Of a DNA stretch of 33,684 nucleotides, positions 9,294-33,684 are shown piece after piece (the stretch's first letter is position 1; the number at the start of each line of letters is the position of its first letter). A program made the position numbers and the translations under genes. The notes beneath the pieces are model-generated. The model saw nothing but the letters and a program-made list of their open reading frames with translations. It was not told the DNA's origin and ran no database searches. This stretch comes from a virus, in IMG/VR virus record IMGVR_UViG_3300029908_000098, positions 1 to 33,684 of that record; one strand, given 5' to 3'.

Positions 9294-9320
9294 TAATATA
9301 GTCTCGTGCGTTGGAACTAC
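9294..9320 (-). promoter_or_regulatory. Bipartite late-promoter-like motif before the hub gene
   Basis: Read leftward: GTAGTTCCAAC, 8 bases (GCACGAGA), CTATATTA, then TTC and ATG. It matches copies at 15911-15937 and 24670-24696 in both boxes and spacing. It overlaps the last codons of the gpN-like gene, so it is not just intergenic filler. I infer a phage promoter. Confidence 0.65.
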
Positions 9321-15910: not shown

Positions 15911-15937
15911 TAATATAGCGCGAAGCGTTGGAACTAC
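15911..15937 (-). promoter_or_regulatory. Bipartite late-promoter-like motif before tail terminator
   Basis: Read leftward: GTAGTTCCAAC, 8 bases (GCTTCGCG), CTATATTA, then GAC and ATG. It lies in a 48-base gap between two genes and matches three other copies in the window. There is no canonical -35 hexamer. I infer that it starts the tail operon. Confidence 0.7.
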
Positions 15938-17338: not shown

Positions 17339-17538
17339 TATTTGCGGACTACGTTGAGACGTTTTGTGTTAGTTTTATTGTTCACCGTTTTAGTAGCGTC
17401 GGCTAGAGCGTTAGGTGGAGCGTGGTACACGGCGTAGCCAGCTTTAACTAATGCGTCTGCAACATGCGGTTCAAATCCAGCGGAATCGTTTTTGTTATAC
17501 GGTCCGTGGGATTTATTGAAAGTGATAATAGTTGTCAT
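17338..17538 (-). CDS. Small conserved phage head-region protein
   Basis: A 66-residue protein beginning TTIITFNKSHGPYNKNDSAG, then FEPHVADALVKAGYAVYH. The K-S-x-G-P-Y-N-x-x-x-x-A-G-F and the A-x-x-L-x-x-x-G-x-A spacing are typical of very small proteins placed after the capsid in many phages. They are of unknown role, perhaps a minor head part. It overlaps the stop of the homing endonuclease by 26 bases, so the inserted gene ends inside this one. It then overlaps the next connector start. Confidence 0.6.
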   Translation of the reverse strand: MTTIITFNKSHGPYNKNDSAGFEPHVADALVKAGYAVYHAPPNALADATKTVNNKTNTKRLNVVRK

Positions 17539-18205
17539 TCTTTTGTTTTTCTATCGGTGTGTAGTTAGGATCATACCAAGATTTGTTGCAAGCGATACAT
17601 GAGATATTCTGTTGGCAAATGCCATATTCGTTAGCTAAAAGAGTTTGTTCACCACGCTGGCCAGTCAATCTACCTCTAATTTCATCAACTATGGATTGTG
17701 TTACTTTTGTATAGTTTTTATGTCCGGCTGCATTGTTGTTTCCTATTTGGCCGTAGGAGATTTTATTGCGGGTGTGTTGTAATACCTCGTGGCCTTTTAG
17801 TGCATAGGAGATTTTTTGGCGTGTTTCTTTCGAGATTATTTTACCCCTAGCTGATTTAGACATCTTCTCACATGTTTCTTTGGTATGTTTCCAACCAGAT
17901 GTCCCTTCACCACCATCAGTTTCGTTAGTTAAATCCCAACCAAGGTTACGAAGTTCTCTTATCCAGTTTTTCTCTATCATTCCCCAATTCACGTTGGGAT
18001 CATCCCATGTAAAAATCGGTTGAATGATTGGTCTCAGTTTCATTCTGTATAATTGCAACAACCAGTTTGCTTTGTGTGTACCATCTCTTCGGTCAGAAAT
18101 ATGTCCACTTAACCGTTCTTCTAGGGTTTTCGTCGTGAACCCCACATACCGAATGGCGTTGTTGCGAGGGTCACGTAAGACGTAAATGTAAAATGGTTTA
18201 TTCAT
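17513..18205 (-). CDS. GIY-YIG homing endonuclease with NUMOD3 repeats
   Basis: A 230-residue protein. The catalytic domain spans about residues 1-95: KPFYIYVLRDPRNNAIRYVG (a YIY...YVG variant of GIY-YIG), ERLSGH, and the Glu in WGMIEKNWIRELRNLGWDL, a likely metal ligand. NUMOD3-type DNA-binding repeats follow (GTSGWKHTKETCEKMSKSAR, GKIISKETRQKISYALKGHE). The end has a helix-turn-helix look (QTLLANEYGICQQNISCIAC). It is free-standing between capsid and connectors, as in many phages. Such genes copy themselves into allelic phages by cutting next to their site. Its tail overlaps the next gene, suggesting invasion of the junction. Confidence 0.9.
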   Translation of the reverse strand: MNKPFYIYVLRDPRNNAIRYVGFTTKTLEERLSGHISDRRDGTHKANWLLQLYRMKLRPIIQPIFTWDDPNVNWGMIEKNWIRELRNLGWDLTNETDGGEGTSGWKHTKETCEKMSKSARGKIISKETRQKISYALKGHEVLQHTRNKISYGQIGNNNAAGHKNYTKVTQSIVDEIRGRLTGQRGEQTLLANEYGICQQNISCIACNKSWYDPNYTPIEKQKNDNYYHFQ

Positions 18206-21750: not shown

Positions 21751-21777
21751 CTGATATAGTCTCGGGTGTTGGAACCC
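21751..21777 (-). promoter_or_regulatory. Bipartite late-promoter-like motif before portal
   Basis: Read leftward: GGGGTTCCAAC, 8 bases (ACCCGAGA), CTATATCA. It lies in the 52-base gap between the large terminase stop and the portal start. Four bases after TATATC comes AT (ATA, not ATG); the portal ATG is downstream at 21729. It is the least exact of the four strong copies but keeps the spacing. Confidence 0.6.
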
Positions 21778-23967: not shown

Positions 23968-24282
23968 CTATGACTGCAACTTATCATCGTTAGTATGTAG
24001 TTGTTGATGGCATGATGGACAAACTGAAGTCAGATTTGACATTGTTAATCGTAACTCAGGATTAGTATCAACGTGTTTAATATGATGAACTATTGATGCT
24101 TCAGTAACAACATCATTTACATCACATAGTTCACACAGTGGGTTCAATGATAGTTTGAGTTTACGTACACGTTGCCATTTGTAATCATAACCACGTTCTG
24201 TTGATGATACTCGCCATTTATCATACTGATTGTGACGGTCAACAGAACGTGATGTATGTAGAGTTGGTGGACGTTGTGGCAT
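23968..24282 (-). CDS. HNH endonuclease, packaging-associated
   Basis: A 104-residue protein. RGYDYKWQRVRKLKLSLNPL, followed by CELC, VHHIKHVDTNPELRLTMSNL and SVCPSCHQQLH is the HNH family next to terminases: a CxxC...CxxC zinc knuckle and HH-N-H catalytic residues. Known HK97-type HNH proteins work with terminase at cos. It lies four bases downstream of the sigma-like gene and upstream of terS, as expected. Confidence 0.9.
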   Translation of the reverse strand: MPQRPPTLHTSRSVDRHNQYDKWRVSSTERGYDYKWQRVRKLKLSLNPLCELCDVNDVVTEASIVHHIKHVDTNPELRLTMSNLTSVCPSCHQQLHTNDDKLQS

Positions 24283-24285
24283 CTG

Positions 24286-24666
24286 TTATTCATCACTATT
24301 ATCAAACGGACTATAACTATCAATACTCGCAACGTCTGTTAACGTTGATACCAACTCTGACTGACGATACTCTAGTGACGCACGCTTCTTAAACGCATTA
24401 AGACAGACTGTTGACATATATGCAAAAGCATTAGTGCCAACCGTCGGATCAAATACACGCCACGCGGTGCACATTGTCATCAATGCGTCCGATTTACATT
24501 CGTCGATGGCGTAAAACTGTCTCCATGCAATGCTTCTGCTATAGTTTTCAACCAGTTGCATACACAGCGTGGCCAGACGATCTGTCATGCGGTTTCGCTC
24601 GCGGGACTTCTCAATCTCGCTCAATAGTTCTTGATTCTCAACTCGCATTGTGTTTTTCTTCGCCAT
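24286..24666 (-). CDS. T4 gp55-like late sigma factor (region 2)
   Basis: A 126-residue protein. Recognisable from gp55 are NQELLSEIEK (residues 11-20; gp55 NKELLQAI), a helix LATLCMQLVENYSRS, then CKSDALMTMCTAWRVFDPTV (57-76), GTNAFAYMSTVCLNAFKKRA (77-96). The FDP..(G)TNAFAY and NAF+KR blocks align with gp55 [21 protein letters not shown]. Gp55 holds the sigma region 2 that binds core polymerase and the -10 element of T4 late promoters. The size fits a compact region-2 sigma without a -35 domain. Its ATG lies four bases after the TATATT of a motif found before other late genes. Assignment by motif comparison, not a search. Confidence 0.75.
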   Translation of the reverse strand: MAKKNTMRVENQELLSEIEKSRERNRMTDRLATLCMQLVENYSRSIAWRQFYAIDECKSDALMTMCTAWRVFDPTVGTNAFAYMSTVCLNAFKKRASLEYRQSELVSTLTDVASIDSYSPFDNSDE

Positions 24667-25030
24667 GGTTAATATAGTTCATGGCGTTGGAACTACTACT
24701 ATCAACGTGACATGGGACTTCCAAATTCTTCGCGAACCGCTGCAATGATCTGATAAACCGTTTGCGTGCAGTGTGATGCGATTTGTGTATAACGCGTCCG
24801 ATCGCCGAGTAAGAACAACGTAGGCCAATAGACGCTACGAGATTGTTATAATCTTGTGCGCCGATGTCTTCTCGGAATACACCTAGGACTACCAACGCAT
24901 CACGCCGAATGTGTTCGATCGGATTGATTGCATCGTCGTAAATTTGTTGAAAAAACAGTGCACATTCGTATTCGCCGGCCGTGATTTGTCCGAGTTGAAA
25001 CAGTGTCTCTAGTCGATTATTGTAGTTCAT
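24638..25030 (-). CDS. Helix-turn-helix-like regulator candidate
   Basis: A 130-residue protein of no family I can name. It begins NNRLETLFQLGQITAGEYEC, a small helical head, and has RRDALVVLGVFREDIGAQDY in the middle. The C-terminal IGLRCSYSAIGRVIHKSHHT, then ARKRFIRSLQRF looks like a helix-turn-helix followed by a basic helix. Its start overlaps the upstream gene stop (TAATG) and its end overlaps the sigma gene and its promoter motif. Being just ahead of the sigma gene, it could be a coactivator or late regulator, but nothing proves it. Confidence 0.55.
   Translation of the reverse strand: MNYNNRLETLFQLGQITAGEYECALFFQQIYDDAINPIEHIRRDALVVLGVFREDIGAQDYNNLVASIGLRCSYSAIGRVIHKSHHTARKRFIRSLQRFAKNLEVPCHVDSSSSNAMNYINHGEEKHNAS
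24670..24696 (-). promoter_or_regulatory. Bipartite late-promoter-like motif before sigma gene
   Basis: Read leftward: GTAGTTCCAAC, 8 bases (GCCATGAA), CTATATTA, then ACC and the sigma ATG. It overlaps the C-terminal codons of the upstream gene, which therefore encode SSSNAMNYINH. It shows the sigma gene may control itself. Same boxes and spacing as at 9294, 15911 and 21751. Confidence 0.7.
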
Positions 25031-25203
25031 TATTTTGTACTCCGCATTGCAAGTATTTCATCACGTGCCTGCCGCAGCATCTCTAGAGCCTTGTCGCAAG
25101 CGTCCAGTGCAGCGTCTAAATGAGCGTCAAAATCAACGTCGCGTTTAAGTGCATCACTTAGAGCGTGTGCACGAACGTTTTTGAGAGATTCATGTGTGTT
25201 CAT
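25030..25203 (-). CDS. Small acidic-helical protein, unknown function
   Basis: A 57-residue product from the ATG at 25203 (MNTHESLKNVRAHALSDAL...). A TTG at 25224 after CGGAG could add seven residues. It looks like two helices with a coiled coil (DACDKALEMLRQARDEIL). Its stop overlaps the next start. I do not recognise it. It may be a partner of the following helix-turn-helix-like protein. Confidence 0.55.
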   Translation of the reverse strand: MNTHESLKNVRAHALSDALKRDVDFDAHLDAALDACDKALEMLRQARDEILAMRSTK

Positions 25204-25226
25204 GATTGTTGTCTTTCGTTGCAACT

Positions 25227-25249
25227 CCGGAGTTATTTTGAAACTCCGG
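25227..25249. other. Stem-loop CCGGAGTT...AACTCCGG upstream of small gene
   Basis: An 8-bp perfect stem with a 7-base loop lies between the HNH nuclease stop and the small gene. The CGGAG arm could be a hidden ribosome site for the TTG start at 25224. Weak T content follows, so it is not a normal terminator. Confidence 0.45.
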
Positions 25250-25275
25250 GTTGCTATTGTTGTTATTGTTATTGA

Positions 25276-25716
25276 TTATCGTGTGTGACGGTCGATGCGA
25301 ACGTATGGCATGTTAGCTGCGGCCATGGTCCGAGAGACTGTCGGTTGCGATACATTAAACTGTTCGGCGATAAATCGTTGCGAAACTCGCCCGTACAATG
25401 CAACGATCGCGTTGCGCATCTCTGTTGTTAGACGTTTGCCGCCGACGTATTTTCGACGGTTGCGCTGCTGTTCCGTGCGGGTTGCCCAACGCACGTTGCC
25501 GGGCTCATAGTTGCCTTCGTTGTCGATGCGCTCAATACTATGTGCAGCGGACGGGCGTGGTCCGACATAAGCAAAAAATGCTGCGAAATCGTTGTACCAA
25601 GCGTCGCAGATATTAATACCACGGGCGCCGTAATCAGGATATGACGCATGTTCCAGGTTGCGTGTTCTGTGCTTGATATTAACCCAACAGGCGTATTCAG
25701 GTGATTTGATAGACAT
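25276..25716 (-). CDS. HNH homing-type endonuclease with C-terminal HTH
   Basis: A 146-residue protein of the family SPEYACWVNIKHRTRNLEHA, then YPDYGARGINICDAWYNDFA, FFAYVGPRPSAAHSIERIDN, EGNYEPGNVRWATRTEQQRN. The Ser-Ile-Glu-Arg-Ile-Asp and N-V-R-W-A-T boxes are common to phage HNH/AP2-related nucleases. The last 60 residues (RNAIVALYGRVSQRFIAEQF, then NVSQPTVSRTM) form a helix-turn-helix that presumably sets the target. It sits between endonuclease VII and the small genes and is probably a mobile gene. Confidence 0.85.
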   Translation of the reverse strand: MSIKSPEYACWVNIKHRTRNLEHASYPDYGARGINICDAWYNDFAAFFAYVGPRPSAAHSIERIDNEGNYEPGNVRWATRTEQQRNRRKYVGGKRLTTEMRNAIVALYGRVSQRFIAEQFNVSQPTVSRTMAAANMPYVRIDRHTR

Positions 25717-25741
25717 AATATGATACTCATCTCTAATATGC

Positions 25742-25818
25742 CTCGTCTTTTGTTTATAGTTAGTTGGGGATGCATCCCCAATCTAACCGAGACGAGTGTG
25801 AGTATTTCTTTCTCACAC
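25742..25818. other. Two adjacent inverted repeats in the gap upstream of the HNH gene
   Basis: The first is nested: CTCGTCT (25742-25748) pairs with AGACGAG (25790-25796), GTTAG with CTAAC, around the 18-bp perfect palindrome TTGGGGATGCATCCCCAA (25764-25781). The second is GTGTGAG, a 9-base loop, CTCACAC (25796-25818). Together they fill most of the 178-bp gap. A perfect TATAAT on the leftward strand at 25838-25843 may start transcription of a structured leader. Confidence 0.7.
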
Positions 25819-25893
25819 ACCTATTTACGCAACGAATATTATAGTAAACACAGGATTTAACCCGTTTTGACCCTGTTTTGGCTTTATAGTCGA

Positions 25894-26274
25894 TCACTTT
25901 TTCGTGATGATTGTTACAGACTTCGTAGAACGTGTTTTTGCTATCCGGTTGCGGCGTATTTTGCTCTTGATACTGCCGGCAAATTCTGGCTTCGGTGTTG
26001 CATAATGTTGCACAACATCCCAGAAACTCGCATAGAGATACGCTTGCAGCAGCAGTGCAGGATCATCTCTAACTGTTCCGAGTAGTTTGTTGCAACGATG
26101 ACAGAGCCTGCCGCGCACGTTGCCATCCGTATGGTTGTGATCTATTGCTAACGCACGCACTTTCGGCGGATTGTTGCATATCCAACAGTTACCAGCATTT
26201 TGTGCTAATAGATTATCCGCGGTCTCTTCGCTGATGCCGTATGTTCTCTGACAATAATTTTCACGTGTCGTCAT
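25894..26274 (-). CDS. Recombination endonuclease VII-like (HNH)
   Basis: A 126-residue protein from the ATG at 26274; an ORF to 26310 would add 12 poor residues. It has CWIC (30-33), the DHNH catalytic box at 45-48 (AIDHNHTDGNVRG), then CHRC (58-61), which together form the zinc knuckle and HNH of the T4 gp49 family. The start YCQRTYGISEETADNLLAQN is also family-like. It resolves branched DNA before packaging. It is the first gene of the leftward operon from a divergent promoter region. The basic tail (SKIRRNRIAKTRSTKSV) probably binds DNA. Confidence 0.88.
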   Translation of the reverse strand: MTTRENYCQRTYGISEETADNLLAQNAGNCWICNNPPKVRALAIDHNHTDGNVRGRLCHRCNKLLGTVRDDPALLLQAYLYASFWDVVQHYATPKPEFAGSIKSKIRRNRIAKTRSTKSVTIITKK

Positions 26275-26300
26275 TGTTATTGTTCTTTCGATACTCGTAG

Positions 26301-26330
26301 AATATACCACAAAAACGTGGAACTTTGCAA
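26301..26330 (-). promoter_or_regulatory. Leftward promoter, extended -10
   Basis: Read leftward: TTGCAA (26330-26325), 18 bases, TATATT (26306-26301), with TGG just before it (extended -10). An inverted repeat CCAC-N6-GTGG (26307-26320) lies between the boxes, perhaps an operator. The inner AGTTCC with 12 bases to TATATT also matches the phage motif. It faces the SANT gene promoter across a 20-base gap. Confidence 0.65.
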
Positions 26331-26350
26331 TATTTGACTACATTTTACAG

Positions 26351-26378
26351 TTGACAACGCTGATGCAGACGCTATTAT
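26351..26378 (+). promoter_or_regulatory. Rightward sigma-70 promoter for the SANT gene
   Basis: TTGACA (26351-26356), 16 bases, TATTAT (26373-26378). The -35 lies in a GTTGACAAC palindrome (26350-26358), a possible operator. An AGGAG ribosome site at 26412-26416 precedes ATG 26423. Confidence 0.7.
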
Positions 26379-26422
26379 CAGTGCACAGCAAAGATGCTGA
26401 ACACAATCAACAGGAGACTACG

Positions 26423-26926
26423 ATGAACACACAGATTGAGATTATGGCACCAACGGTTGCACCCCAGGGTCTGCTAGCACATGCAGCATTGGTAACGGGG
26501 TCCGAGACTGTCCCCGCGCTTCACGAGACCATCAAACAAATGGGAGTCATCCATAGTATGAAGATGGCTTTGGTCGGGCTTTCTGGATATTCTTACTTCG
26601 CTGCACGGAAAATTGGTGGAGAACTTAGCAACGCCAAGGCTCACGTAGAGACGCTTCACGGCCACGTACAGACCCTCACCGAAGCGAACATAGCGTTGCA
26701 AGTTGAGCTAGAGCGTCGGGCTACAGTCTCTGCTAATGCGTCGGAAAAGCCTGCCAAGAAGCGTTCGGCCAAGAGTTCTGGCGCACGATGGAGCCAAGCT
26801 GATGAACAACGGTTGCTCACCCTTGGCGCCAACCGTCAGGGAACTAGTTGGGAAATGATTTCGCGACAGTTCGCCGGAAGGTCTGCTGCAAGCGTTCGGT
26901 CAAAGTACGCGGCACTATCTAAGTGA
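26423..26926 (+). CDS. SANT/Myb-like DNA-binding protein
   Basis: The ATG at 26423 has a strong AGGAG six bases upstream; an ORF to 26351 overlaps the promoter. The 167-residue protein has an N-terminal part of unknown fold (IMAPTVAPQGLLAHAALVTG), a hydrophobic stretch around GVIHSMKMALVGLSGYSYFA, a coiled coil (KAHVETLHGHVQTLTEANIA, LQVELERR), a Lys-rich linker, and a C-terminal SANT/Myb-like domain (ARWSQADEQRLLTLGANRQG, TSWEMISRQFAGRSAASVRS, KYAALSK). The W-x-x-x-D-E and R-S-x-x-S-V-R-S-K-Y pattern is clear. It is the only plus-strand gene in the leftward early region, and transcribed divergently, so an early repressor or switch protein is a reasonable guess. Confidence 0.75.
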   Translation: MNTQIEIMAPTVAPQGLLAHAALVTGSETVPALHETIKQMGVIHSMKMALVGLSGYSYFAARKIGGELSNAKAHVETLHGHVQTLTEANIALQVELERRATVSANASEKPAKKRSAKSSGARWSQADEQRLLTLGANRQGTSWEMISRQFAGRSAASVRSKYAALSK

Positions 26927-26934
26927 AGAGCGTC

Positions 26935-26959
26935 CTGCCCAACGCGGAGCGTTGGGCAG
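26935..26959 (+). terminator. Stem-loop after the SANT gene
   Basis: CTGCCCAACG, 5-base loop, CGTTGGGCAG: a 10-bp stem. It lies between convergent genes. No T-run follows, so it may block transcription from both sides without being a classical terminator. Confidence 0.5.
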
Positions 26960-26977
26960 CAAGCGTCTAATCAAATA

Positions 26978-27286
26978 TCAATCGGCTAGCATTTCGGCAA
27001 AGCGTATTGCAAAAAGCGTTAGATCAGCGTCGGAGCGAAACCATAATTCACCGTGATATCCATCATAACAAAATCCGTATGGAACAATCGCAGGCTCATA
27101 TCCGAGGTATTCTTCTGACCACTTCCACGGAAGAACATCAAGCAAATATTCCTTGACAATTTCTAAACCAGAACCCGTGTGATCATTTTCACGTTGTGGT
27201 ATGAACATACTTTTTGTTGCGAAATATTTCAGGCGCAACTTCTTCGCGGTATCATCCCATCGTGGCCGATTATTGTTGTTAATCAT
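26978..27286 (-). CDS. Hypothetical early phage protein
   Basis: A 102-residue protein starting MINNNNRPRWDDTAKKLRLK. It has aromatic- and acidic-rich GYEPAIVPYGFCYDGYHGEL, then WFRSDADLTLFAIRFAEML. The C-terminal DGY....(F)RSD.DL....RF resembles the end of the next upstream gene (DGYISSDTDLSWIVLRF), so they are probably paralogues. No function is known. It overlaps the small membrane ORF by eight bases. Confidence 0.6.
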   Translation of the reverse strand: MINNNNRPRWDDTAKKLRLKYFATKSMFIPQRENDHTGSGLEIVKEYLLDVLPWKWSEEYLGYEPAIVPYGFCYDGYHGELWFRSDADLTLFAIRFAEMLAD

Positions 27287-27423
27287 TTTTCGACGCTGCT
27301 CTAAATGCCATCTGAATCATACAGACAACAAACATCACTACCCATAGTCGCCAATCACACCATACGACTAGGTAGATTGACAACGTAGCTCAACGTTAAT
27401 AGCAATAATGCGTAAAAAGCCAT
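27279..27423 (-). pseudogene. Small membrane protein, likely frameshifted
   Basis: Two short frames overlap. From ATG 27423 (AAGGA upstream) reads MAFYALLLLTLSYVVNLPSR to a TGA at 27355; another frame, from 27383, reads IYLVVWCDWRLWVVMFVVCM then IQMAFRAASKND and stops in the next start codon (ATGATTAA). Read as one, they would be a 47-residue two-helix membrane protein. Either a base is lost or the second frame starts at a TTG (27383). The role is unknown, and short membrane proteins of early phage regions may act on the host. Confidence 0.35.
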
Positions 27424-27526
27424 TGTCTAAAATCCTTTTTGTTATACGCTTATATATCCTGCCAGAAAATCCATTATCTCCGGCGTTAACCTGATCGTTG
27501 ATCACATATTGTTGCAATGAATTGCA

Positions 27527-27964
27527 TTACTGATGGCGCTTGCGAGCCATTGATAATATTGTCCATACTTTAAGAGCGTTTTCGCTGACAATGCCTAGAG
27601 GATAACCGTCAGGGTGGCGCGAGAGTTGAAAGCGATCGTCACCGGTAAAGCGTAATACGATCCATGATAAATCGGTATCGCTGCTGATATAACCGTCGCA
27701 ACGATATTTGTTATCGGATACCCAAACATCGTTAGCAAAATCTTCTTCGGTTGCATATGGGTCATCGTCGGTCCGATTATACCAGTGACCAGTTGGTGTA
27801 AATTTGATTTCAGTTGCTGTGAGATTGTCCTGAAATTCATAGTGCAAATCTTCGTGATCATATGTTGTCAGATCAACTAATCTGAAACGATGCGTCGGTT
27901 CGATTTTGTCGGAGTGATCAAATCCGGGTTGCGACGGAATAAATTTGGATAATGCGTGTGTAAT
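27527..27964 (-). CDS. Hypothetical early protein, ATT start candidate
   Basis: The only in-frame start with a ribosome site is an ATT at 27964, with AAGGA upstream. The first standard start is a TTG at 27847, which leaves out 39 clearly protein-like residues (THALSKFIPSQPGFDHSDKI, EPTHRFRLVDLTTYDHEDL). The 145-residue form has FTPTGHWYNRTDDDPYATEE, then VWVSDNKYRCDGYISSDTDL. Its C-terminal section parallels the downstream 102-residue gene. Twenty bases separate it from the helicase-primase stop. The role is unknown. Confidence 0.55.
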   Translation of the reverse strand: MTHALSKFIPSQPGFDHSDKIEPTHRFRLVDLTTYDHEDLHYEFQDNLTATEIKFTPTGHWYNRTDDDPYATEEDFANDVWVSDNKYRCDGYISSDTDLSWIVLRFTGDDRFQLSRHPDGYPLGIVSENALKVWTILSMARKRHQ

Positions 27965-27984
27965 TTTGTTTTCCTTTTTGTTGG

Positions 27985-30471
27985 TTAGTATCTTCTGATG
28001 TTGTCGATAATGCTTTTGATCTGATTCAAACGATCTTTCGGAGTGTGTGCGTAGCCAGATTCTTGGCGGAGTATATCACGGATTGCTGGTAGTTCTAAAC
28101 CAAATCGTTTCAGCTTAGCGCCGAGAATAAAGTAGCCATGATTTTGCAATCCGGATGGACACGTGCGCCAGTCATTGATTGCGGATGTTATACGATGTTG
28201 GTGCACCGTGTTCATTTCTGCATCATGTTGCGCTTGTAGTCGTTGGATCATTCCGCACATCTTATCAGAGACGTTAGCAGGGATTTCGGGACGCGGAGTC
28301 GGCAGTAATAACTCCGGTGTCAACGGTTCCGGATCACGCTGTTGCGGTGTAATGCTATGTTCAATCCAGTCCGGGACGCATAATGGTTTTCTGTTGCCGT
28401 CTTTGAAATCCAGGAAGAAACTAGAGTTGGGATCAGTGTCGCCAGCTTGGCACGGGAGATACATTAGATTTTCTGGATACGTCTTAGACCAGTCGAAGCC
28501 ATGATTCTGATACGGTAGCTCAGATGCGTTTTCGTTACGCTTGAACCATTTATAGAGCCATTGTTCCGATCGGTAGCCGACACCGTGTTGTTCAACGACT
28601 TGTTTGATTTGTGTTGTGATGTCTATGTAAAGTTCTGTTGTCATTGCATGCGTAGTCGGGATGAAAACGCGCCAACGTGGTGCTGCCGCAGTTGACTTAA
28701 ACGAATTGTAAACAACAATACGCAGTTGCGGGAAAAGCGCCGTGAACTCGTTGATTGTCATATCACCGCCATCATTGTCTAACCAGATGCCGATTGATGA
28801 CGTGATGTTGTGTCTGCCCCTGCGGGTTTCATCTGACAACTCGTTGAAGATAGAGGGGCTGATCAGCTTGTTGTCTTCTTTGGTTGCGTATCTAGTTGCA
28901 TGTAGACCTGATAAGTAGTTAATGAAATCATCAGGAGTGGTCCACGGGATCACATGGCTTGCTGTCATGGCTCTTGTGCTGTTAAAAACAGACATACCAA
29001 TCGGCTTAAAATATGTCCCACGGGGTATATTATCTATAGTGTGTGGGACACTTTTTAAGCTACCTACGTCTTCACAATGTAATAAGGCGACTCCCATAGC
29101 AAGACGGAGTTGTTTTTCATCACGGAACTCTTTTTTCCGTACTGCTGACGATACGTCCCTACTACGTCCCTTAGAAATCCGCTTCTCTGCCTTGATGGCA
29201 GTCGGCAACAAAGCGATTTCGGAACCGGGAAACAAAGCGGAAATGTATTCAGCGCAACCCCTATCTTGCACAACTATATTCTTTTTTGTTGAGCTATCGG
29301 GATTACGGAGCGAAATCCTCAATGCCGCCTGATACGTAGCTTGATACGTGATTGCACATCTGATTTCATCGCTGGAAACGTTGCACGTATGCCCCAAAAA
29401 CTTAATGTGTGCAGGTGATAGATTGAGAGCAGAATAAACAACTGCATTATTGAGATGTTGAAAATCATTTAGGCCGTGTGGCGTATTGGGTAGTTGAATA
29501 CCGCTATATTCTGTCACTAGCCCGGAAATCGTTTCTGCTATATCAACGTTGACCATGTAAGCGTGTTCAGCGAAGCCGAACAGCTTCATCGACGCTAAAA
29601 TCATTTCATCTAAGTTTGTATTATTTTCGGAGATTTCGGCATCGCGGAGTTTTTTTGACCAGTCACGTTCCGTTGCATAATGTATTGTGAGCAATCCGCC
29701 GTTGGTATGCTCAGTGCTCCGCAGACGCTTTGTGATGGCCTTCCGTTCGCTCCATTCAACGCCATAAGCCGTCCACACGCGGAACAGCAGAGTGTCTTTG
29801 AGACAGGCAGACATCACCGTGACACTCCGCCAATCGTCAAGTGCATCAGGATTCAGCGTTGCGAAAAACGTTATCTGCCTATCATCGCTAGACAACTTCC
29901 AACCGCGTGTGATAACTCTTACGGTCCATTTTTTCGACAGGAGTATGTTACAGAGTTCGCGGTACGGCGCGAAAACCGCACTAGCTTCACCGCGTGAAAC
30001 CCGTTTGATCAGATGCTTGTTAGCGATTTCGATGCGGGAGTATTGAGCACCTTCCGGCATGGCTCTTAACGCAATCATTAAACCGCGCGGTAACGTATCA
30101 AACTTGTAGCACGGTGAAGCGTTCGGCACTTCATCGACGATCAATGACCATTCGTTCTGTCTCTGAAAATATGGTAACCGCAGAATAGCTGAATGCGTCA
30201 CGAAAAGGATTTCTCCGTTGCTGCGCTCAGATGCTTCCCGCGAAAACTTGATGACATCTCCAACCACCCTCATCGGACTGGTGCCTGAGTGTATAACACT
30301 TACCGCAACGTCAGGATGACGCGCACACATATCAGCATACGATTGATCAATGAGATCGCGCGATGGCTGGGCAATGACGATCTTACGTCCCTTGCGCGCC
30401 TGATCAGCAGCAACATCAATAGCCGCGTAGGTCTTACCGCCCCCGGCAATAGTATCCACAAAATATTTCAT
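27985..30471 (-). CDS. Helicase-primase fusion (replication)
   Basis: The ATG at 30471 is the likely start; a longer ORF to 30531 adds 20 weak residues. The 828-residue protein starts MKYFVDTIAGGGKTYAAIDV with Walker A (AGGGKT, 9-14) and DEVP at 113-116 (DEAD-like Walker B), an SF2 helicase N-half. From about residue 530 comes an archaeal-eukaryotic primase-like part: LDNDGGDMTINEF near 563 (acidic pair), then YNSFKSTAAAPRWRVFIPTT near 590-605. Near 770-795 HGYFILGAKLKRFGL and a final NQIKSIIDNIRRY resemble a PriCT-type domain. It would open and prime phage replication in one chain. The primase assignment is based on motif order and is less sure than the helicase. Confidence 0.75.
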   Translation of the reverse strand: MKYFVDTIAGGGKTYAAIDVAADQARKGRKIVIAQPSRDLIDQSYADMCARHPDVAVSVIHSGTSPMRVVGDVIKFSREASERSNGEILFVTHSAILRLPYFQRQNEWSLIVDEVPNASPCYKFDTLPRGLMIALRAMPEGAQYSRIEIANKHLIKRVSRGEASAVFAPYRELCNILLSKKWTVRVITRGWKLSSDDRQITFFATLNPDALDDWRSVTVMSACLKDTLLFRVWTAYGVEWSERKAITKRLRSTEHTNGGLLTIHYATERDWSKKLRDAEISENNTNLDEMILASMKLFGFAEHAYMVNVDIAETISGLVTEYSGIQLPNTPHGLNDFQHLNNAVVYSALNLSPAHIKFLGHTCNVSSDEIRCAITYQATYQAALRISLRNPDSSTKKNIVVQDRGCAEYISALFPGSEIALLPTAIKAEKRISKGRSRDVSSAVRKKEFRDEKQLRLAMGVALLHCEDVGSLKSVPHTIDNIPRGTYFKPIGMSVFNSTRAMTASHVIPWTTPDDFINYLSGLHATRYATKEDNKLISPSIFNELSDETRRGRHNITSSIGIWLDNDGGDMTINEFTALFPQLRIVVYNSFKSTAAAPRWRVFIPTTHAMTTELYIDITTQIKQVVEQHGVGYRSEQWLYKWFKRNENASELPYQNHGFDWSKTYPENLMYLPCQAGDTDPNSSFFLDFKDGNRKPLCVPDWIEHSITPQQRDPEPLTPELLLPTPRPEIPANVSDKMCGMIQRLQAQHDAEMNTVHQHRITSAINDWRTCPSGLQNHGYFILGAKLKRFGLELPAIRDILRQESGYAHTPKDRLNQIKSIIDNIRRY

Positions 30472-30619
30472 AACAATAATCCATAAACAATAACCTAAAA
30501 GCCTATTCCCTTTGAGAGTTCGCAAAACCATTTGGAAGGGATGGTCCGGAGATTTTACCCTCCGGACCGGCTTTCGTATGGATTATTCGATACAGGTAGC
30601 TACTCCTGTCTCTCATTAC

Positions 30620-32619: not shown

Positions 32620-33684
32620 CTATGCATCTATAATCCGCTCACGTTCCCGCTCAATCCGGGTAACGGTTGCGCCAACGTTCGGTTGAGCCTTGGGCGATAG
32701 TCCCTCCAAGCGTCTCACAGCAGCGTATACCAGATCATCTGTCCATGCTGGATCGTCGATTATTAACGGATATTCCGCCACACCGGTTTCAGTGTTGACG
32801 CCCAAAATCCAAAGCAATTGTCCCTTCCTGACTCCAGCAAAACGGGTTCCGTTTCCGATTTCGACAATGATCAATCCATCAGGTCTAAATCCTACCAGAG
32901 AGACAATAGATCGGATTTCCGCTGCAACCTGGACTCTAGCATCAGGATCATGATCACGCGCACGCTGTATCAACGCTACGGCCACATCAGATGCTAACGT
33001 CTCAGGACGCATCATTGATATAGATCGCGTCCGTTCTGCATCTGATATTTGAGATTTCAGACCAGCTATCAGAGACTTCCCGTCAGCTAAACGATTTAAC
33101 AATGCAGGATCATCATCACCGTTTGCATACAGATCATACAGCCTTCCATGCCGCGTTTCTGCGGACTTCAGATCAGTGATCAGCTTTGATATTTGTTCGT
33201 CCAGTTTTTTGACGTTGGAATCAGGAGACGATAAATCATCACAGAGTATCCTACGCAGTACCGTTAAAGTGATTTCTTCAAACTGTTCGTATGCATAGTT
33301 TCCACCTGTCGGGCAGGATTTTCTGACATACCTGTTATGACATCTGAGATAATGATTCCGTTTATTACGATGACATACGATTTCCATTGTACCGCCGCAA
33401 TCAACACAACGGCATAATCTGGCAAAAAGATTTACAGGCGCCGTTGCGCGCGTCTTCATTCCGGGTGATGCAGAAGACCTGATGGCCATCTGATGCTGCG
33501 CACGCTCCCATAGATCATACGGTATGATCTGAGGGTAATAATCCCGAATTGGTTCACCAGTCGGAACAGGCTTTTTTTCCGTATCATAGTTGCAAAAATA
33601 CAACTGCTTTTCACCGATAACGGAACGGTCAGTTAGGATTTGACGGATGTATGCAGGTGACCATCGCTTTGATCGGCCAAACGA
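32620..33684 (-). CDS. int: Large serine integrase, C-terminal part
   Basis: The frame is open to the right edge, so 355 residues are seen and the catalytic domain lies outside. The visible part begins with the recombinase domain (SKRWSPAYIRQILTDRSVIG, then YYPQIIPYDLWERAQHQM), followed by a zinc ribbon (CRCVDCGG, CHRNKRNHYLRCHNRYVRKS with C), and a coiled-coil segment (KLDEQISKLITDLKSAETRH). The end is a beta region with RFAGVRKGQLLWI. It splices the phage into the host chromosome. The ORF from 33603 begins at an internal TTG and is a shorter version. Being the outermost gene, it suggests an attachment site beyond the right edge. Confidence 0.93.
   Translation of the reverse strand, partial: SFGRSKRWSPAYIRQILTDRSVIGEKQLYFCNYDTEKKPVPTGEPIRDYYPQIIPYDLWERAQHQMAIRSSASPGMKTRATAPVNLFARLCRCVDCGGTMEIVCHRNKRNHYLRCHNRYVRKSCPTGGNYAYEQFEEITLTVLRRILCDDLSSPDSNVKKLDEQISKLITDLKSAETRHGRLYDLYANGDDDPALLNRLADGKSLIAGLKSQISDAERTRSISMMRPETLASDVAVALIQRARDHDPDARVQVAAEIRSIVSLVGFRPDGLIIVEIGNGTRFAGVRKGQLLWILGVNTETGVAEYPLIIDDPAWTDDLVYAAVRRLEGLSPKAQPNVGATVTRIERERERIIDA

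Follow-up and report, generated by a model that had tools for sequence, protein, structure and literature searches.

A gp55-family sigma factor, a bipartite late site and a candidate partner protein in a small, probably temperate phage

The late sigma factor gp55, known from large lytic phages, is the textbook case of a sigma factor for which a required replication clamp takes the place of a -35 element. The locus described here raises the question of whether a small and probably temperate phage possesses a sigma factor of this kind, and how its late promoters would be recognized. The window, i.e. the whole stretch of 33,684 nucleotides which was analyzed (IMG/VR virus record IMGVR_UViG_3300029908_000098), contains on its minus strand an ORF of 126 residues (24286-24666). 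The initial annotation had taken its product for a gp55-like sigma, which acts in the manner of T4 gp55 on a single box shared by the late genes.

Assignment of the 126-residue protein to the gp55 family

The sequence blocks quoted in favor of this assignment (N11-QELL, FDP, TNAFAY, and NAFKKR) are present in the ORF. Among the PHROG families, phrog_234 (late sigma transcription factor) matched with an E-value of 6.5e-14 and phrog_12791 with 1.9e-8. The Pfam match to Sigma70_r2 was below the cut-off, and a phmmer search of the PDB gave T4 gp55 as a single match with a non-significant E-value of 0.15. A family profile, which comprises the window protein and 49 relatives (50 sequences), matched T4 gp55 in the PDB with an E-value of 3.6e-31 and other sigma factors weakly. 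From the same family alignment, an AlphaFold2 model with a mean pLDDT of 90.6 was built. The best Foldseek match of this model was 7d7c_F, which is gp55 in an RNA polymerase open complex (E-value 7e-4, probability 1.00, TM-score 0.70). It was the sole match at E < 0.001, and the next ranks were mostly region 2 domains of sigma factors; structure prediction, which had been proposed as a check, led to gp55 and not to a non-sigma fold. When the protein is aligned with nine gp55-type sigmas, T4 gp55 among them, the residues N11, L15, F72, N79, A82, Y83, and E99 are invariant. A comparison with the relative on contig L122 gave a dN/dS value of 0.12. Because three routes agree, namely PHROG, the comparison of the family profile with the PDB, and the fold, we consider the question settled: It is near certain that the ORF encodes a member of the T4 gp55 late-sigma family, which consists of region 2 only.

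In T4 gp55, the residues E70, D74, and E77 touch the clamp helices, and Y97 stacks on and holds the adenine at position -12 (PMC7892883). According to the alignments, the corresponding residues are E56, D60, M63, and Y83; three of the four are kept, and among the acidic contacts to the clamp helices two of three (E56, D60), the third being M63. Arg 114 of the T4 helix-loop-helix corresponds to Y100, with R101 adjacent. In the model, residues 80-116 form a single long helix, with no counterpart of the second helix in the helix-loop-helix of gp55; moreover, the aligned sequence stops well short of the C-terminal tail of T4 gp55, which binds the sliding clamp. This does not disqualify the protein as a member of the family, because the C-terminal clamp-binding similarity is not kept in all T4-family phages (PMC2988020). 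The missing tail is no argument against a working sigma factor either: Basal activity is reported for the clamp-free gp55-RNAP complex, and truncation at the C-terminus leaves gp55 able to bind RNA polymerase and to initiate basal transcription (PMC7892883), so that a tail-less gp55 is mechanistically possible. Note that the short length is not unique, since gp55-like proteins of 114-124 residues are also encoded on other IMG/VR contigs, some of which are from large genomes. A scan with PHROG and Pfam detected neither a sliding clamp gene nor a gp33 gene among the ORFs of the window, which holds part of the genome. Of the T4-like mechanism assumed initially, the family assignment was borne out, whereas a direct transfer was not, as the clamp-binding tail is missing and neither a clamp nor a gp33 gene was found. 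As a separate observation, tandem pairs of gp55-like genes, i.e. duplicated late sigmas, occur on the IMG/VR contigs L021 (5527-6087 and 6068-6451), L130, L142, L167, L188, and L190.

The bipartite site in front of late gene blocks

The box CTATATTA occurs three times in the window as an exact match, in all cases on the minus strand (9294, 15911, and 24670). The box alone is not enriched if one mismatch is allowed; 27 occurrences were counted with 22.3 expected, and 15 of 100 shuffles reached 27. Inspection of the gaps which precede late genes revealed that the three exact boxes, as well as a near-exact fourth one, have a common upstream half. The complete site can be written as GTTCCAAC-N8-CTATATTA; it exists in four copies, each of which deviates at no more than one of the 16 positions and lies on the late strand. 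Allowing for up to three mismatches, we found five matches compared to 0.19 expected, which none of 100 shuffles reached. A de novo search for 8+8 bipartite repeats with differing spacers resulted in this site and one low-complexity repeat and in nothing else; the same search on 12 shuffled genomes returned none. A scan with promoter and terminator consensus sequences gave no excess over shuffles. The initial annotation had proposed a shared late box and the lack of a -35 element. A motif common to the late genes and to the front of the sigma gene does exist; the lone -10 box, in contrast, is actually one half of a bipartite site. The lack of a -35 element is not right, because the conserved upstream element GTTCCAAC is present at a fixed spacing of 8 bp, though at an unusual distance.

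Each site heads a block of genes, and three of the four are intergenic. Site 1 (GTTCCAACgccatgaaCTATATTA, 24670-24693, minus strand) is located in the overlap of the gene o130 and the sigma gene, in front of the block sigma-hnh2-terS-terL. Site 2 (GTTCCAACacccgagaCTATATCA, 21752-21775, minus strand) lies in the gap between terL and the portal gene and precedes the genes for portal, protease, major capsid protein (MCP), and adaptors. Site 3 (GTTCCAACgcttcgcgCTATATTA, 15911-15934, minus strand) is found between o159 and o187, ahead of a block which contains o187, sheath, tube, and tape measure and extends to the hub-like o411. Site 4 (GTTCCAACgcacgagaCTATATTA, 9294-9317, minus strand) occupies the gap between o411 and the hub gene and is followed by hub, baseplate, and fibers. 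This four-block layout matches the expectation for late promoters.

In relatives with changed surroundings, the two halves are kept at 63 of 64 positions, the spacer at 20 of 32, and the flanks at 164 of 240. Fisher's test for halves versus spacer gave P = 3.7e-6, which is a rough value because aligned positions were taken as independent and the flanks were ungapped. At site 1, all 16 positions are identical in L122 and L236 despite an altered spacer, and although the site resides inside the coding sequence of o130. Its conservation is partly that of the amino acids (NYINHG); the synonymous positions are unchanged as well. At site 4, both halves are intact in L009, L254, and L298, with the spacer changed at five of eight positions. 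This change is oddly local: The spacer (9302-9309) reads gcacgaga in the window and gtctcgga in these three contigs, and the flanks are near-identical. In the collection viral_contigs, the exact bipartite pattern was found in 69 stretches; the only record with at least two exact copies is of the window phage lineage. Other contigs of this lineage have one or two bipartite sites each, and matches in unrelated contigs are singletons, mostly in AT-rich contigs. The bipartite site is likely to be a late promoter.

The distance to the start codons differs between the sites. In front of sigma and o187, CTATATTA ends 3 nt before the ATG; in front of hub and portal, the bipartite element is 22-27 nt from the start codon. 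A box located 3 nt before an ATG necessitates a leaderless start or, in the case of sigma, initiation at a second ATG (24648); o187 has no second ATG. A survey of Shine-Dalgarno sequences found none at sigma, none at o187, and none at several other genes, which is why their absence was rejected as proof of leaderless starts. These data bear on the positive feedback which the initial annotation had predicted: A site does precede the sigma gene, but the geometry demands either a leaderless start or the ATG at 24648. With this proviso, positive feedback of sigma on its own gene appears plausible.

The overlapping gene o130 and the recognition of the site

The sigma gene is immediately preceded by o130 (24638-25030, minus strand), with an overlap of 29 nt; the product of o130 is a helical protein of 130 residues with a putative sigma-region-4-like helix-turn-helix (HTH) motif at residues 72-99. 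Nothing significant was found for o130 in Pfam, PHROG, NCBIfam, the PDB sequences, or the fold search. The AlphaFold2 model is mediocre (pLDDT 69), and the search for relatives among isolated phages found none. The one type of relative (L122, L236) is 57% identical overall; the HTH block GLRCSYSAIGRV-xx-KSHHTARKRF (residues 69-80 and 83-92) is unchanged. By means of hhalign, this block was compared with several HTH families. The P-values were 3.9e-4 for Sigma70_r4_2 and 1.6e-3 for Sigma70_r4; GerE (0.017), HTH_3 (0.15), and TetR (0.73) gave poorer values and were rejected as HTH types of o130. The matches to sigma region 4 were in each case above all 40 shuffled controls. No NCBIfam match indicative of a late activator of the ArpU/RinA type was obtained up to an E-value of 10. 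The comparisons modestly support a sigma-region-4-like HTH in o130, the binding of DNA or RNA polymerase being putative. We infer that o130, which the initial annotation had missed, is the likely partner of the gp55-like sigma.

A comparison of the window type with L122 and L236 yielded dS values above 2 for o130 and sigma and of 0.2-0.5 for hnh2, terS, and terL; for both o130 and sigma, dN/dS is about 0.12. The co-exchange of the two genes is weak evidence of a partnership, because the exchanged segment exceeds the o130-sigma pair and begins near the 3' end of the helicase gene. In the comparison with L236 (window 24286-28508), an early segment of several kb, which reaches from the 3' end of the helicase gene to the stop codon of sigma, is swapped for a diverged version in phages which are otherwise near-identical.

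Family membership and fold of the sigma factor, as well as the existence, the positions, and the conservation of the site are observations. From them, we infer the promoter function, the assignment of each half to one protein, the autoactivation, and the order of events. In our preferred reading, the gp55-like protein (region 2) and o130 (region 4-like) probably constitute a split late sigma factor, which would drive four late operons and itself. Early transcription through o130 and sigma would yield both proteins from the overlapping genes. The gp55-like protein would then bind the clamp helices of the host core RNA polymerase and would read and melt CTATATTA. The HTH of o130 would bind GTTCCAAC 8 bp upstream and would recruit or stabilize the polymerase; o130 would take over the role played in T4 by the sliding clamp and gp33. 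The same site heads four late operons, and as one of them starts at the sigma gene, sigma would reinforce its own synthesis. Note that GTTCCAAC would extend from about -29 to -22, if CTATATTA covers -13 to -6. This is too close for a region 4 at the canonical flap position; therefore, o130 may be placed next to the polymerase in the manner of an activator. Only tentatively do we go one step further and propose a clamp-independent, two-gene split sigma factor of a small temperate phage, in which a region 2 of the gp55 lineage may cooperate at a bipartite late promoter with a sequence-specific, region-4-like partner from an overlapping gene, the upstream element being read by this partner.

Alternatively, o130 could be a late activator which cooperates with the host sigma-70 at CTATAT boxes without a -35 element, the gp55-like sigma being accessory or acting elsewhere. 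Small HTH activators are often encoded just upstream of terminase genes. CTATAT is the -10 element of the Sinorhizobium meliloti sigma-70 consensus CTTGAC-N17-CTATAT (PMC2573895), and the host looks alphaproteobacterial. This explanation is a serious rival, which we nevertheless regard as rather unlikely, since it leaves a gp55-type sigma under purifying selection without a job, though its gene starts at a site. In addition, a CTTGAC-like hexamer 17 nt upstream of CTATAT does not exist at any of the four sites, and o130 fits no family model of ArpU, RinA, or Q.

It is improbable that the gp55-like protein reads the sites alone in the T4 manner, with GTTCCAAC being bound by a host factor, a phage repressor, or the Myb-like protein encoded at 26351-26926. 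The basal activity of gp55-RNAP by itself (PMC7892883) and the presence of genes for further DNA-binding proteins nearby are in line with this possibility. However, o130 is the only HTH gene which overlaps sigma, and within the otherwise diverged o130 conservation is highest in the HTH block.

The chances are poorer for the assumption that the repeated element, rather than being a promoter, marks a recombination boundary, is the target of a homing endonuclease, or serves as a translational element at gene starts. The sites are located at gene boundaries of a mosaic genome which contains several HNH and GIY-YIG endonucleases, and at two of the four sites the element directly precedes an ATG that has no Shine-Dalgarno sequence. 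Yet a boundary of homologous recombination would be one unbroken block, whereas here the spacer varies and the halves are fixed. The orientation always agrees with late transcription, and the four sites split the late genes into four blocks. Several further starts also have no Shine-Dalgarno sequence, and at hub and portal the distance of 22-27 nt to the start codon argues against a fixed translational signal. That the ORF is a non-sigma protein which resembles gp55 by chance is hardly credible: It misses the curated sigma-70 cut-offs of Pfam and NCBIfam, but the PHROG match, the PDB match of the profile, the fold match, and the low dN/dS value in the relative contradict this notion.

The proposed split sigma factor has parallels in known systems. 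It shares with T4 gp55 the homologous region 2, the same core and -10 binding block, and an A/T-rich box of 8 bp; in T4, gp55 drives the late genes. T4 late promoters consist of the TATAAATA-like box alone and have no upstream element (PMC2988020), whereas the window sites add the conserved GTTCCAAC. Further differences concern the phages: T4 is a large lytic myovirus with a clamp-binding tail and a second helix in the helix-loop-helix of gp55, a clamp, and gp33; the window phage is small and probably temperate. In T4, gp55 forms a split sigma factor with gp33; the two genes are invariably far apart, and it has been asked why this is so and why no fused form exists (PMC2988020). The putative partner gene of the window, in contrast, overlaps the sigma gene. 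Genes 33 and 34 of SPO1 resemble this arrangement, as the accessory gene comes first and overlaps the sigma gene (by 4 nt), and as both serve late transcription from two-element promoters. The SPO1 late promoter CGTTAGA-N17-19-GATATT (PMC3601020) has a spacing of 17-19 bp compared to 8 bp in the window. The SPO1 proteins were rejected as homologues, with hhalign P-values of 0.77 for o130 versus gp33 and of 0.015 for the gp55-family profile versus gp34; as read from its sequence, gp34 itself has a C-terminal HTH. In the SigO/RsoA system of Bacillus subtilis, the functions of regions 2 and 4 are likewise distributed over two small proteins encoded by neighboring genes; this split sigma factor is cellular and outside the gp55 family, and its likeness to the window pair is one of layout.

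If our reading is true, this compact natural case makes the question testable which the distant genes of gp55 and of the region 4 mimic pose in T4, and it shows a temperate phage which times its late genes by a sigma switch rather than by an antiterminator. The four sites are a ready-made set of candidate promoters for such experiments. A literature search found no paper on a gp55-type sigma in a small temperate phage; coverage was partial, and this absence is therefore weak evidence of novelty.

Phage context, relatives and host

The predicted late region (1086-24282, minus strand) was annotated by means of PHROG and comprises genes for HNH, TerS, TerL, portal, protease, MCP, adaptors, Mu-type sheath and tube, tape measure, hub, baseplate, and tail fibers. 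The HK97-type head and the Mu-type tail reported earlier were confirmed, the former by terminase, portal, protease, and major head protein, the latter by sheath, tube, and baseplate. The serine integrase was also found again: The C-terminal part of a large serine recombinase is encoded at 32620-33684 (minus strand; phrog_95, E-value 5.5e-26; Zn_ribbon_recom, E-value 7.7e-8). The window ends within its ORF, so that the 5' end, and with it the N-terminus, is missing from the window.

Contig G007 is 99.7-99.9% identical to the window in the long blocks compared and contains, beyond the window start, genes for a glycosyl hydrolase 108 lysozyme and a BRO-N antirepressor. Its end (L333:19173-19520) is DNA of 71% GC content with a gene for a class I/II aminotransferase; in the plasmid collection, the best matches of this gene (55-59%) come mostly from Alphaproteobacteria. 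This high-GC end is a probable junction of prophage and chromosome; alternatively, it may be an assembly chimera. The window phage is a small myovirus; the serine recombinase together with the probable phage/host junction on G007 indicates that it is temperate, and its host is probably an alphaproteobacterium.

The best matches among isolated phages are 34-42% identical (TerL 36-42%, sheath 34-40%) and include those of the SfV, ST64B, and BgVeeders33 type, temperate phages of a known mosaic type which also combine an HK97-type head with a Mu-type contractile tail. In BgVeeders33, which was inspected closely, no sigma is annotated next to the packaging genes, unlike in the window phage. A tblastn search for gp55 homologues in isolated phages gave 522 records. 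Of the approximately 100 matches listed, almost all come from T4-like or jumbo phages with at least 166 kb; the shortest is an 89-kb marine fragment. The closest homologues among the matches listed (31% identity) belong to XacN1, CM1, and other jumbo phages; the genomes of this type have 319-385 kb, and their gp55 homologues are with about 200 residues longer than the 126-residue protein of the window. Among gp55-bearing loci from IMG/VR and genomes, many of which are short, head and tail genes like those of the window are found beside sigma only in the window lineage. In 299 sampled Pseudomonadota genomes, no gp55-like gene was detected beyond the T4-like contig used as a start, and a scan of genome_contigs gave 13 matches, none of which has structural genes similar to those of the window phage nearby. 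A match of sigma on a Salipiger plasmid was rejected, as the proteins of the plasmid fit no sigma family.

Several further genes were observed in the window. Four endonuclease genes are contained in the 34-kb stretch (23968-24282, 25276-25716, 17513-18205, and 25894-26310); the types are two HNH, one GIY-YIG with NUMOD3, and one endonuclease VII. Just upstream of the GIY-YIG gene, there is an inverted repeat (CGATGATAGAGA ... TCTCTATCATCG). A helicase-primase-like protein of 848 residues is encoded at 27985-30531 (minus strand); its best PHROGs, 31024 and 2467, have no assigned function. The gene at 26351-26926 (plus strand) encodes a protein with a Myb-like DNA-binding domain (Pfam E-value 3e-4, below the cut-off; no PHROG match); it is located on the opposite strand, at a promoter-like site of the form TTGACA-16-TATTAT.
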